This document shows positions 15,736 to 19,568 of a stretch of 64,000 bases of DNA, one piece after another. This DNA is from Pseudomonadota bacterium (lineage in GTDB: Bacteria > Pseudomonadota > Alphaproteobacteria > Rhodobacterales > Rhodobacteraceae). The number at the start of each line of letters is the position of its first letter. Within the stretch, counting starts at the first letter, position 1. The notes beneath the pieces are model-generated. The model did not search any database. It worked only from the letters and a program-made list of their open reading frames with translations, and was not told where the DNA came from. The stretch spans positions 1 through 64,000 of the forward strand of contig JAFEFU010000062.1 of NCBI GenBank assembly GCA_018240425.1, given 5' to 3'. Both the position numbers and the translations under genes were made by a program.

Positions 15736-16233
15736 ATGAACCGTCGAACCCTTCTCGTGACCGCCGCCGCCGGGCTGACCCTGACGGCCTGCGGCCACAA
15801 CAAGTTCCTGCGCTACGACGGCCCGCCCGTCACCGCGGTCGTGGTGCAGAAGGCCAACCGCAAGATGTTCCTTCTCGACGGCAATCAGGTGCTGAAACAG
15901 TATGACATGCATCTGGGCGGCGATCCGGTCGGCGCCAAGCAGTTCGAGGGCGACATGAAGACCCCGGAAGGGCAGTATTTCATCAGCCACCGCAACCCGA
16001 ACAGCCGCTATTACCTGTCGCTGGGCATCTCCTACCCCAACGACAAGGACCGCGCCTTCGCCGAGGCCGCCGGCAAGCCGCCGGGGGGCGATATCTTCAT
16101 CCACGGCCAGGACCCCAAGGTGAAAGCCAAGGGCGGCGACTGGACGGCGGGCTGCATCGCCGTCACCGACCGCGAGATGGAGCAGGTCTATGCGATGGTG
16201 CAGCCCGGCACCCCGATCTTCCTCTATCCCTGA
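15736..16233 (+). CDS. L,D-transpeptidase (YkuD) lipoprotein
   Basis: A 165-residue envelope protein. The N-terminus is a short signal with a lipobox-like TLTAC (cysteine about residue 19), so it is probably a lipoprotein. The YkuD catalytic region shows the histidine in IFIHGQD (about 121) and the cysteine in WTAGCIAV (about 139). Such enzymes make 3-3 peptidoglycan crosslinks or attach proteins to the wall. The ATG at 15736 is chosen because the signal peptide begins there; upstream frame sequence is not signal-like. A CAP-domain lipoprotein and a second L,D-transpeptidase follow. Confidence 0.85.
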   Translation: MNRRTLLVTAAAGLTLTACGHNKFLRYDGPPVTAVVVQKANRKMFLLDGNQVLKQYDMHLGGDPVGAKQFEGDMKTPEGQYFISHRNPNSRYYLSLGISYPNDKDRAFAEAAGKPPGGDIFIHGQDPKVKAKGGDWTAGCIAVTDREMEQVYAMVQPGTPIFLYP

Positions 16234-16271: not shown

Positions 16272-16781
16272 TCAGCCGCCGGTGACCAGCGTCCACCAGA
16301 TCTTGCCCGACGGTTCCTGATACCAGGCAAAGCCCACATCCTTCGCGGCGGGATCGACGATGACCGTCCGCGTGGACTTGACCTGCATCCAGGCGGTCAG
16401 CGTCTCGATCTCGTTCTCGTAGGTCTCCGAGATATTCTCGCCCAGCATCTTGCCCGGATAACCGGTGCGCTGGACCCGCAGGATCGGCGAGGAGCCGTCC
16501 GAACCGAAGTGCCAGGGCCGGTTCTGCACCGCCATGTCGCGTGAATGGGTGGCGGCGGCGGCGGTCAGCTGGGCATTCAGCGTCAGGGGCGCGAGACCGC
16601 CCTTGGCGCGCACGCTGTTGATCGAATCAAGCATGGAATAGGTGACGCGGCTGACATCGCCCGGTCCGATCACATAGGGCGTCGGCAGCGGCCGCCCGTC
16701 CGGCCCAAGCTCCTTCTGGCCCGAAACGCAGGCGGAAAGCAGCGCGAGTGCAGTCAGGACTGCGCCGATATTGGTCTTCAT
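16272..16781 (-). CDS. CAP-domain (SCP/PR1-like) lipoprotein
   Basis: A 169-residue secreted protein with a lipoprotein signal (lipobox LLSAC, cysteine about residue 18). The CAP fold follows: SINSVRAKGGLAPLTLNAQLTAAA, then SRDMA and HFG carrying the first conserved histidine, GENI near residue 120, and the terminal WWTLVTGG. Bacterial CAP proteins of this size are extracytoplasmic and of unclear enzymology. Its place between two L,D-transpeptidases suggests a wall-related role (inference). It is divergent from the second transpeptidase across 196 bases. Confidence 0.82.
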   Translation of the reverse strand: MKTNIGAVLTALALLSACVSGQKELGPDGRPLPTPYVIGPGDVSRVTYSMLDSINSVRAKGGLAPLTLNAQLTAAAATHSRDMAVQNRPWHFGSDGSSPILRVQRTGYPGKMLGENISETYENEIETLTAWMQVKSTRTVIVDPAAKDVGFAWYQEPSGKIWWTLVTGG

Positions 16782-16977
16782 CTGGAGGCTGTCCCCTCTT
16801 CTGGTGCAGGGGTGCTTTACAGTCTCGCCAAACGGTGTTCAAACGCCAAATCATCCCGCAGGCGGCCGGTCGCAGAGCTTTGATTTGCCTGACCCGCCGC
16901 GGTGCGCGACAGGACAAGGTGACGCCGGGGACGCGGCGGATCGGGCGAAAGGCCCCAAGAAGAAGCGGAGAGAGGAC

Positions 16978-17613
16978 ATGAGCAGAGACGACGAAACCAG
17001 GTTCAATCGCCGGGCGCTTCTGGGCACGGCGGCGGCCCTTGCGGCCTCGTCGCTGGCGGCGCCGGCCCTGGCGCAGGTGGTCAGCACCACCACCGACCAG
17101 AACGACGCCAGCACCACCGAGATGGACGCCGACATCAGCAGCAACATCCGCCGCAATGTCTCGAGCTTCCGCTCGTTGAACTGGCAGGACTATTTCCAGA
17201 ACACCCGCAAGGGCGCGATCCTTGTCGACATCACCTCGCGCGCGCTGCACTTCTGGAACGAGGATCAGACGATCTACAAGCTTTACCCCTGCTCGGTGGC
17301 GCTGACCGACGACCTGACCCGCCGCGGCACGACCGAGGTGGTGGAAAAGGTCGTCAATCCGCCGTGGCGCCCGACGCCCTCGATGCGGGAACGCTATCCC
17401 GACTGGCCCGAGTTCGTGGCCGGCGGCGACCCGAAGAACCCGCTCGGGCCGCGGGCGCTGTATCTGTCCTGGCAATATTACCGCATCCACGGCACCCAGG
17501 ACACGCGCAAGATCGGGAGGCGTTCGTCGAACGGCTGCGTCGGCCTTTACAACGAACATATCCTCGAACTGTTCGGGCTGGCCAACGTCGGAACCCAGGT
17601 GTTGCTGATTTGA
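16978..17613 (+). CDS. Secreted L,D-transpeptidase (YkuD domain)
   Basis: A 211-residue periplasmic YkuD enzyme. The N-terminus reads FNRRALLGTAAALAASSLAAPALA, with a twin-arginine pair but a Tat motif that is only approximate, cleaving after ALA near residue 35. The catalytic region shows the histidine in YRIHGTQD and the cysteine in SSNGCVGLYNEHILEL, close to the standard SHGC motif, and ends in the typical GTQVLLI. The ATG at 16978 has GAGAGGAC upstream; the longer open frame from 16771 is not signal-like. It is the second such enzyme in 2 kb and is followed by two small membrane-protein genes. Confidence 0.87.
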   Translation: MSRDDETRFNRRALLGTAAALAASSLAAPALAQVVSTTTDQNDASTTEMDADISSNIRRNVSSFRSLNWQDYFQNTRKGAILVDITSRALHFWNEDQTIYKLYPCSVALTDDLTRRGTTEVVEKVVNPPWRPTPSMRERYPDWPEFVAGGDPKNPLGPRALYLSWQYYRIHGTQDTRKIGRRSSNGCVGLYNEHILELFGLANVGTQVLLI

Positions 17614-17727
17614 CGCCATAGGCCCCGGGGCGGCGTGCGCAGCAGAAAAAGCTGGAAAAAATCCTGCGCCCACCGCACCCTGTGGCCAGGGAAGCAGGCT
17701 GCCCCGGCCGTCCCGCCTGAAAAATTC

Positions 17728-17746
17728 GGGGCGCGGATGGAGACAT
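17728..17746 (+). repeat. Conserved 19-base leader, copy 1
   Basis: A 19-base block with a GGAG ribosome site lies directly before the first 60-residue protein gene and is repeated exactly at 18223-18241 before the second. It shows that the duplicated unit included the translation-initiation region. Confidence 0.8.
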
Positions 17747-17750
17747 TGAG

Positions 17751-17933
17751 ATGAAGAAGATCGTTCTTGCTGCGGCTCTGTCGCTGGCCGCCACCACCGC
17801 TTTCGCCGGCGGCATGGCCGAGCCGGTGATGGAACCGGCCCCGGTCGAGGCCAAGGCCGCCTCGTCGTCGAGCGGCATCCTCATTCCGGTGCTGCTGCTT
17901 CTGGTCGTCGCTGCGGCCGTCGCCAGCAACTGA
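17751..17933 (+). CDS. Small secreted/membrane protein, tandem copy 1
   Basis: A 60-residue protein of unknown function. Residues 1-19 form a Sec signal peptide ending AFA. Residues 20-42 are Ala/Pro/Glu-rich with a run of four serines, and residues 44-58 are a hydrophobic, Leu/Val-rich helix ending VASN, so the mature product is probably a very small single-pass membrane protein. The second copy at 18245 has an identical mature part; only signal residues 5, 11 and 13 differ. The DNA differs at many synonymous positions, so both copies are under protein-level selection. I recognise no family. Confidence 0.8.
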   Translation: MKKIVLAAALSLAATTAFAGGMAEPVMEPAPVEAKAASSSSGILIPVLLLLVVAAAVASN

Positions 17934-17961
17934 TTGCTGCCTGACGCGCTGATGCGCGCTT

Positions 17962-17991
17962 CCGCTTGCGGCGGACCTCCGCCGCAAGCGG
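17962..17991. terminator. Perfect 13-bp stem-loop after small gene copy 1
   Basis: CCGCTTGCGGCGG and its exact complement flank a four-base loop (ACCT at 17975-17978), 28 bases after the stop at 17933. The stem is very stable but is followed by CTCTCT, not a U-run. It may be a terminator, a 3' stabilising hairpin, or part of a small RNA. Confidence 0.55.
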
Positions 17992-18222
17992 CTCTCTACT
18001 GCCCGCGCCCGCCTGTCGCGAGCGCGTCCAAATCCACGTTTTCGCTGGCAATTCCGCCCTCCGCACCGGCCCGTCCGGGACGGAGTGTTGCTTATTTGAC
18101 AAAATGGGCGAAACCTTCGCCGTTCGCGCACAAGACGTGTTGCAAATATCAGACTCTTCGCGCTACTCGACAACACGAGGTAACGATAATTGCCCCAGTT
18201 ATCCTCACTTGAATCCTATGCT

Positions 18223-18241
18223 GGGGCGCGGATGGAGACAT
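18223..18241 (+). repeat. Conserved 19-base leader, copy 2
   Basis: Exact copy of 17728-17746, ending three bases before the ATG at 18245, with the GGAG ribosome site at the same register within one base. Confidence 0.8.
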
Positions 18242-18244
18242 ACA

Positions 18245-18427
18245 ATGAAGAAAATCGCGCTTGCTGCCGCTCTCGCCCTTACCGCCACGACCGCTTTCGC
18301 TGGTGGCATGGCTGAGCCCGTCATGGAACCGGCGCCCGTCGAAGCCAAAGCCGCTTCGTCGTCGAGCGGCATCCTGATTCCGGTGCTCCTGCTGCTCGTG
18401 GTTGCCGCGGCCGTCGCCAGCAACTGA
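18245..18427 (+). CDS. Small secreted/membrane protein, tandem copy 2
   Basis: A 60-residue paralogue of the gene at 17751. The signal peptide ends at A19 and the 41-residue mature part is identical to copy 1, although 16 of its codons differ synonymously. The ATG at 18245 is set by the repeated leader; the frame extends upstream to 17966 without homology. A good terminator follows 27 bases after the stop. Retention of two protein-identical copies suggests dosage or differential expression. Function unknown. Confidence 0.8.
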   Translation: MKKIALAAALALTATTAFAGGMAEPVMEPAPVEAKAASSSSGILIPVLLLLVVAAAVASN

Positions 18428-18500: not shown

Positions 18501-19568
18501 TCAGACCCAGCCCGACAGGTTCTGGCGCACCACCGCCATCAGCGCCCTGATGTGGGCCTCCTCGTCGTTCAGGCAGGGGATATAGGCAAAGTTCTCGCCG
18601 CCCGCGTGCAGGAAGGCCTCGCGGATTTCGCCCTGGATCTCTTCCAGCGTCTCGATGCAGTCGGCCGAGAAGGCGGGCGAGATGACCGCGATCCGCCGTT
18701 TTCCCGCCCGCGCCAGCTCGGCCACATGCCTGACCGTGTAGGGCTTCAGCCATTCCTCGGGACCAAAGACCGACTGGAAGGTCGTGTCGATCGTGCCCTC
18801 GCCCCAGCCCAACCGCTCGCGCAGAAGCCGCGTCGTCCGCTGGCACTGGCAATGATAGGGATCGCCCTCGCGCAGGTAGCGTTCCGGCATCCCGTGGTAG
18901 GAGGCGACAAGAACGTCCGGCCGGTGCTCCAGCCCGGCAAAGGCGCGCTCGACCGAGCCGGCCAGCGCGTCGATATAGAGCGGATGATCGAAATAGGGGG
19001 CCACGGTGCGCGCCGCAGGCTGATGGCGTTCCTTCATCAGCGCCCGGAAGAACTGGTCGTTGGCGGTGGCCACGGTCGCGCCGGCATATTGGGGATAGAG
19101 CGGGAAGAACAGGATCTTCTCGCAGCCCGCCGCCACCATCGCCCGCACCCGCGCCTCGGTCGAGGGGTTGCCGTAGCGCATGCAGAAATCGACGATCACT
19201 CCCTCGCCCCATTCCGCCAGCGCCGCCTCGCGCAGCCGGTCGGTCTGCTGGCGGGTGATGGTCATCAGCGGGCTTTCGTCGCGCTCGCGGTTCCAGATCG
19301 TCCGGTAGTCGCGGCCCTTGGCCTGCGGCCTGCGGCTGAGGATGACAAGTTGAAGGATCGGCTGCCACTTCCAGGCCGGGTAGTCGATGACCCGCTTGTC
19401 CGAGAGGAACTCGGACAGATAGCGCCGCATCGACCAGTAGTCGGTGCCGTCCGGGGTGCCGAGGTTGGCCAGCAGCACGCCAATCTTCGGCTGCGGCCGG
19501 GCCGGATGGCCGGCGGGCGCATGAGGAAGGGCGCGGGGGGGCATCGCGGGATCGAGGGGGTTGTTCAT
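18501..19568 (-). CDS. hemH: Ferrochelatase
   Basis: A 355-residue ferrochelatase, which inserts Fe2+ into protoporphyrin IX in the last step of heme synthesis. Clear features are GVLLANLGTPDG near residue 35, the metal-site histidine in ASYHGMPERYL near residue 205, the FQSVFGPEEWLKPYT segment, and VISPAFSADCIETLEEI with the second active-site acid. The ATG at 19566-19568 has AGGACAGG upstream and overlaps the stop of the upstream methyltransferase by four bases. A bidirectional terminator lies just beyond the stop. Confidence 0.95.
   Translation of the reverse strand: MNNPLDPAMPPRALPHAPAGHPARPQPKIGVLLANLGTPDGTDYWSMRRYLSEFLSDKRVIDYPAWKWQPILQLVILSRRPQAKGRDYRTIWNRERDESPLMTITRQQTDRLREAALAEWGEGVIVDFCMRYGNPSTEARVRAMVAAGCEKILFFPLYPQYAGATVATANDQFFRALMKERHQPAARTVAPYFDHPLYIDALAGSVERAFAGLEHRPDVLVASYHGMPERYLREGDPYHCQCQRTTRLLRERLGWGEGTIDTTFQSVFGPEEWLKPYTVRHVAELARAGKRRIAVISPAFSADCIETLEEIQGEIREAFLHAGGENFAYIPCLNDEEAHIRALMAVVRQNLSGWV

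Follow-up and report, generated by a model that had tools for sequence, protein, structure and literature searches.

Two small-protein genes lie directly downstream of an L,D-transpeptidase gene

The window, by which we mean the whole 64,000-nucleotide stretch of DNA that was analysed, carries two tandem genes on the forward strand, copy 1 at 17751..17933 and copy 2 at 18245..18427, each encoding a protein of 60 amino acids. As stated in the initial annotation, the proteins differ only at residues 5 (V/A), 11 (S/A) and 13 (A/T), all within the signal peptide, and residues 20–60 (41 codons) are identical while 16 of these codons differ, all synonymously. The exact 19-base leader described there, GGGGCGCGGATGGAGACAT, was located at 17728-17746 and at 18223-18241, a few bases upstream of each start codon. 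Both proteins consist of a signal peptide (residues 1–19), a leash (20–42) and a transmembrane helix (43–60), and an AlphaFold2 model places helices at residues 2–22 and 40–59 with a low-confidence coil between them. Neither copy contains the cysteine or lipobox of the Braun lipoprotein, a C-terminal lysine for attachment is absent (both copies end in ASN), and no beta-barrel domain follows the leash, as judged from the lack of a Pfam match and the single helix in the model. No Pfam or NCBIfam match was obtained for the small protein at E≤1, in agreement with the earlier statement that it belongs to no recognised family.

Two L,D-transpeptidases were said to lie nearby, and both are present as YkuD proteins, one immediately upstream of the pair and one two genes away. 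The nearer, LDT2 (16978..17613, forward strand; Pfam YkuD E 2.2e-24), has a twin-arginine-type signal and is, by position, the counterpart of R. sphaeroides RSP_1199. Among 31 LDT2 orthologues H171, G172, T173 and C187 are invariant, and the YkuD HGT and S-x-G-C motifs are present. The farther one (15736..16233, forward strand; Pfam YkuD E 8.2e-20) has a lipobox and is the positional counterpart of RSP_1201. On the reverse strand at 16272..16781, divergent from LDT2, lies dalA, encoding a divisome-associated lipoprotein that exceeds the NCBIfam equivalog cut-off (NF052539, 254.5 vs 200 bits). On the other side of the pair the convergent neighbour is the ferrochelatase gene hemH (18501..19568, reverse strand), whose function is probably unrelated to that of the small protein.

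RSP_1199 has been co-precipitated with the division lipoprotein DalA (PMC10470522), and CenR activates it (PMC9275681). The R. sphaeroides neighbourhood is that of the window, with dalA divergent from the transpeptidase gene and the second YkuD gene beyond, and the small protein is not mentioned in the searched part of the text describing the complex (PMC10470522). A CenR-like site, TCGCAGAGCTTTGAT (16870..16884, forward strand; 11.5 bits), is found 5' of LDT2 in the window and is kept there in relatives. Using a matrix built from 31 published CenR sites, we found that the regions upstream of 64 LDT2 genes score a mean of 9.8 bits, compared with 4.9 bits in shuffles. CenR-like sites 5' of the small protein itself had weak scores and we make no claim for them.

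The gene order rlmD, YkuD gene, dalA (on the opposite strand), LDT2, small protein and convergent hemH is nearly invariant, with one to six copies of the small protein at this place among the loci compared. In 61 of 68 distinct loci the gene directly upstream of the small protein, on its strand, is LDT2, at a median gap of about 150 bases, and in Litoreibacter and Phaeobacter loci, where hemH is elsewhere, LDT2 and the small protein are still together. Since LDT2 and not hemH is the constant neighbour, a hemH-related role in haem or iron metabolism was set aside. Five genomes without LDT2 are also without the small protein. Several genomes carry LDT2 and no recognised small protein, and in several of these seemingly negative genomes a divergent protein of the same architecture is encoded right behind LDT2. 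The longest arrays, of six copies (L015) and five copies (L018), are accompanied by duplication of LDT2 itself. These arrays belong to Fuscibacter oryzae and Tabrizicola sp. SY72 (L015:1271-4198, L018:1197-4198).

The small protein belongs to a widespread Rhodobacteraceae family

A search of Rhodobacteraceae for the mature sequence had been proposed. We found the small protein in 315 of 395 sampled Rhodobacteraceae genomes, with at least one copy in each and up to eleven in some, so the family is widespread and absence from other genomes was not borne out. The tandem pair is present in all five genomes of the window's genus. This genus is probably Frigidibacter, since the two small proteins of G001, one of its genomes, are also those of Frigidibacter sp. 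RF13 (L016). Across the class the protein was found in only 4 of 190 sampled genomes, three of them of the window's own family (the source genome included) and one an incomplete genome of another family. No match was found in plasmid or phage collections, and a match inside a 510-aa frame of the source genome (L003) was judged to be chance. By these sequence comparisons the small protein is a real, conserved, uncharacterised and uncatalogued Rhodobacteraceae family.

The highest copy numbers, 7 to 11 per genome, were seen in G206, G386, G288, G328 and G245. Tabrizicola oligotrophica encodes the same small-protein sequence twice, once at the usual locus and once at an unrelated site, where it has a leader of its own (L017:4001-4177, L020:4001-4177).

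We then compared 95 distinct family members. The predicted signal-peptidase site has alanine at −1 in 95/95 and at −3 in 84/95, and the residue that follows A-x-A is glycine in every one of the 95. The second mature residue is Gly in 76, Asn in 14 and Ser in 5; mature position 6 is Pro in 91/95 and mature position 9 is Glu in 89/95. In a background set of 154 crudely predicted exported proteins from four Rhodobacteraceae genomes, a small sample, glycine stands at +1 in 10%, glycine followed by G, N or S in 1.3%, and the full motif in none. The common architecture read from these alignments is a Sec signal, an N-terminal glycine, an acidic Pro/Glu leash of ~23 residues and a C-terminal transmembrane helix. 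At two other loci (L019, L033) the signal peptides are quite different and the leash is kept. In a few divergent proteins that share this architecture and are encoded downstream (L159, L164, L166), the start is E, Q or T and not G[GNS]. Some C-terminal tails are acidic, which is not favoured by the positive-inside rule.

Several further variants were observed. At L278 (G046:C21) the leash AFA|GGYSEPVMVAPVVV is followed by a longer, different C-terminal part ending YSNNKDD. L166, L143, L147 and L167 encode relatives in architecture only, of quite different sequence and some with acidic C-terminal tails; among such relatives is GGFADEIVEAPVVVVEP..SGDDSDDEED, of which three stand in tandem on one contig.

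The leash is shared with Omp25-like beta-barrels

When a 26-residue leash query was run against 26 genomes, almost the only matches besides the small protein itself were Omp25-like beta-barrels (PF13505). A second leash query against 61 genomes left this picture unchanged and added a few noise or ambiguous matches. In the Omp25-like barrel of the source genome the sequence reads ALA|GGLGAPVTEPPVAAPAPVAAPLANGDWTG, and related barrels without the linker, which start directly at the barrel, occur in the same genomes. The leash has a median length of 23 residues (22-28) in the small protein and 24 residues (21-26) in the barrels. In all 18 genomes in which both could be read, the class of the second residue agrees between small protein and barrel: GG small proteins occur with GG barrels in 12/12, and GN/GS small proteins with GN/GS barrels in 6/6 (Fisher p 5e-5, a value that ignores kinship, the GG and GN/GS classes being confounded with phylogeny).

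Purifying selection alone does not account for the identity of the copies

The initial annotation read the identical mature parts as the result of strong purifying selection and proposed an estimate of dN/dS. By the Nei-Gojobori method the mature regions of the two copies show 16 synonymous and 0 nonsynonymous differences over 34.7 synonymous and 88.3 nonsynonymous sites (dS 0.72, dN 0), and the whole genes give dS 0.75 and dN 0.024, a dN/dS of about 0.03 and not near 1. The mature peptide is constrained, as claimed; however, constraint by itself is insufficient for identity, because orthologues of equal synonymous divergence do change the mature sequence. Between the source genome (G000) and G003, a genome of the same genus, LDT2 and hemH have dS values of 0.48 and 0.65. 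The small-protein copies, both of which occupy the same places in G003, are about as old as the split of these two genomes or older. The mature parts of the G000-G003 orthologues have 10-14 nonsynonymous differences, compared with 0 between the two G000 copies (Fisher p 0.0005-0.007, copy comparisons of this kind resting on a small number of sites).

Across 13 multi-copy genomes or loci we found that helices are 96% identical within a genome and 65% between genomes, leashes 79% and 57%, and signal peptides 83% and 69%, while the codons of copies within a genome have diverged as far as between species. This pattern points to concerted evolution of the helix within genomes. Two processes would each yield identity: selection for matching copies, as in helices that associate, and local gene conversion with later synonymous drift. 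Low helix divergence in G003 and G004 suggests conversion. In G000 the data do not support gene conversion as the sole recent cause, dS being even along the whole gene (0.6-0.85); an old conversion event may have taken place there.

A conserved hairpin precedes the small-protein genes

The identical 19-base leader proved to be the 3' arm of a hairpin together with the Shine-Dalgarno sequence. The copy 1 leader (17701..17750, forward strand) has the shorter stem, with arms GCCCCG at 17701-17706 and CGGGGC at 17727-17732 and the Shine-Dalgarno GGAG at 17739-17742, and this stem is also present at copy 1 of the genus relatives. Copy 2 carries the full form (18175..18244, forward strand), in which ACGAGG at the presumed transcript start is followed by arms at about 18191-18198 and 18221-18228, a CCTC loop and the Shine-Dalgarno GGAG at 18234-18237. 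A putative promoter for copy 2 lies upstream (18140..18168, forward strand), with the −35-like TTGCAA at 18140-18145 and a −10-like element near 18161-18168; this pair was not picked up in a generic scan for sigma-70 promoters. The same elements, TTGCAA and CTGnTTA, are conserved 5' of the leader in about 60 loci, and family leaders combine this promoter-like pair with ACGAGGTA at about the position where the transcript should begin and a hairpin directly ahead of the Shine-Dalgarno sequence. The hairpin with the ACGAGGTA start and CCTC loop is also seen at L014:3924-4003, L072:1424-1503 and in other relatives.

In an alignment of 33 leaders, 15 tested pairs (11 of the hairpin and 4 of a possible pseudoknot) were formed in 93% of cases, compared with 36-49% when the positions were slid. 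Two-sided changes numbered 57, compared with 18 +/- 6 in shuffles, and all fell within the hairpin. The pairs of the pseudoknot between ACGAGG and the CCTC loop do not covary and many roseobacter leaders are without the CCTC loop; we make no claim for it. We discarded the idea of a conserved upstream ORF in this region, since the leaders differ in length by amounts that break the reading frame. A search of Rfam 15 gave no match in the small-protein locus, and for the leader no credible one either in the window or in the eight relatives searched. A covariance model searched against 26 genomes gave matches before the small protein and none convincing elsewhere, this model being too insensitive for the divergent variant of the window's genus. 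The covarying 5' UTR is a candidate new cis-regulatory RNA conserved across Rhodobacteraceae, and it probably affects the stability of the mRNA or its translation.

The small protein as a putative tether between inner membrane and peptidoglycan

In Brucella, L,D-transpeptidases attach Omp25 covalently to peptidoglycan at its N-terminus; in Coxiella, enzymes of the same class join barrels to it via an N-terminal Gly-Gly (PMC12729407, PMC10787603). Because the leash of the small protein is that of the Omp25-like barrels, which are cousins of these transpeptidase-linked proteins, we read the small protein as a substrate of the same reaction. The constant glycine start, the matching second residue and the linkage to LDT2 also favour this reading. 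The product of both genes would be exported and lose its signal peptide by cleavage at AFA|GG. The mature protein would extend a leash with a free N-terminal glycine into the periplasm and be held by one transmembrane helix in the inner membrane. An L,D-transpeptidase would then couple the N-terminal amine to the diaminopimelate of a peptidoglycan stem; the enzyme would most likely be the upstream LDT2/RSP_1199, which works with DalA, and could be another L,D-transpeptidase. The outer membrane would be fastened to the wall by the barrel and the inner membrane by the small protein, on leashes of equal length. The helix probably self-associates, and for that reason the copies within one genome would stay alike. 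We put the probability of this tether reading, with the small protein as an L,D-transpeptidase substrate that anchors the inner membrane to peptidoglycan, at roughly 0.55.

The fixed linkage to LDT2 and dalA, together with the co-precipitation of RSP_1199 and DalA, would also fit a non-covalent role, in which the small protein would keep LDT2/DalA at the inner membrane as a regulator or scaffold and its leash would bind the transpeptidase with no bond to peptidoglycan. Such a role leaves the presence of the glycine-led leash on Omp25-like barrels and the matching second residue unexplained, and we consider it unlikely. Those two features could instead reflect nothing but a signal peptidase or Sec preference or a flexible spacer with a Gly-Pro start, the small protein having some unrelated membrane role; both protein classes are exported and share a lineage-specific composition, and related linker-less barrels are found in the same genomes. 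However, a G[GNS] start is rare among other exported proteins and the leash outlives replacement of the signal peptide at L019 and L033, which makes this explanation distinctly unlikely.

The acidic or neutral C-terminal tails, and the fact that LDT2's partner DalA is an outer-membrane lipoprotein, could be taken to place the hydrophobic C-terminal segment in the outer membrane or in a periplasmic assembly, as a second outer-membrane tether or a filament. The small protein has neither lipobox nor barrel, and a Leu/Val/Ala helix of 17-20 residues that follows a Sec signal normally acts as a stop-transfer segment in the inner membrane; we regard this placement as very improbable. Small hydrophobic proteins in tandem behind a structured 5' UTR also recall type I toxin-like or holin-like arrays of membrane peptides. 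Type I toxins have a patchy, often mobile distribution, whereas these genes are chromosomal and occur at one syntenic place in about 80% of the sampled family genomes, unmatched in the plasmid and phage collections. Their periplasmic leash is strongly conserved, and a toxin or holin array seems scarcely credible.

Relation to known envelope tethers

The tether reading would make the small protein probably an inner-membrane variant of the transpeptidase-anchored envelope proteins. It resembles the Omp25/AopA- and BbpA-type barrels of Brucella, Agrobacterium and Coxiella in its Sec export, in its presumed free N-terminal residue (Gly or Ala in the barrels) and in its flexible leash, and the enzyme that joins those barrels, an L,D-transpeptidase, is the one proposed here. 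The two differ in the anchor, which is a beta-barrel in the one and a single C-terminal helix in the small protein, whose link is putative. By analogy with the Brucella and Coxiella relatives, the Omp25-like barrels of Rhodobacteraceae are candidates for attachment to peptidoglycan. Braun's lipoprotein Lpp is likewise a small membrane-to-wall tether made by an L,D-transpeptidase; compared with Lpp, however, the small protein has no lipobox, no cysteine and no C-terminal Lys, and would be anchored in reversed orientation in the inner and not the outer membrane.

Hardly any protein is known to tether the inner membrane covalently to the wall, and the sole precedent that we found is OutB, an inner-membrane protein of Dickeya dadantii that can be linked covalently to peptidoglycan by L,D-transpeptidases (PMC12274547), as proposed here for the small protein. 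OutB serves as a scaffold of a secretion system; its membrane segment is N-terminal, an Lpp-like box stands at its C-terminus, and it has no sequence relation to the small protein. Somewhat short of even odds, we would extend the tether reading to a wider model in which Rhodobacteraceae have a specialised counterpart of Braun's lipoprotein in the inner membrane, tiny and often multi-copy, whose Omp25-like leash is joined by the DalA-associated transpeptidase. Both membranes would then be pinned by equal leashes, and the new structured 5' UTR would control expression.

According to the DalA study (PMC10470522), it is not known which outer-membrane proteins of R. sphaeroides are bound to peptidoglycan. 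The present analysis offers candidates for both membranes, a likely enzyme and N-terminal peptides for mass spectrometry, so that direct tests in a genetically tractable bacterium become possible. An uncharacterised small protein found family-wide gains a testable function, and one candidate cis-regulatory RNA is added. In the source genome the Omp25-like barrel is encoded at G000:C50, about 85100-85709 (L093); with its mature start GGLGAPVTEPPVAAP, it is a candidate peptidoglycan-linked outer-membrane protein.
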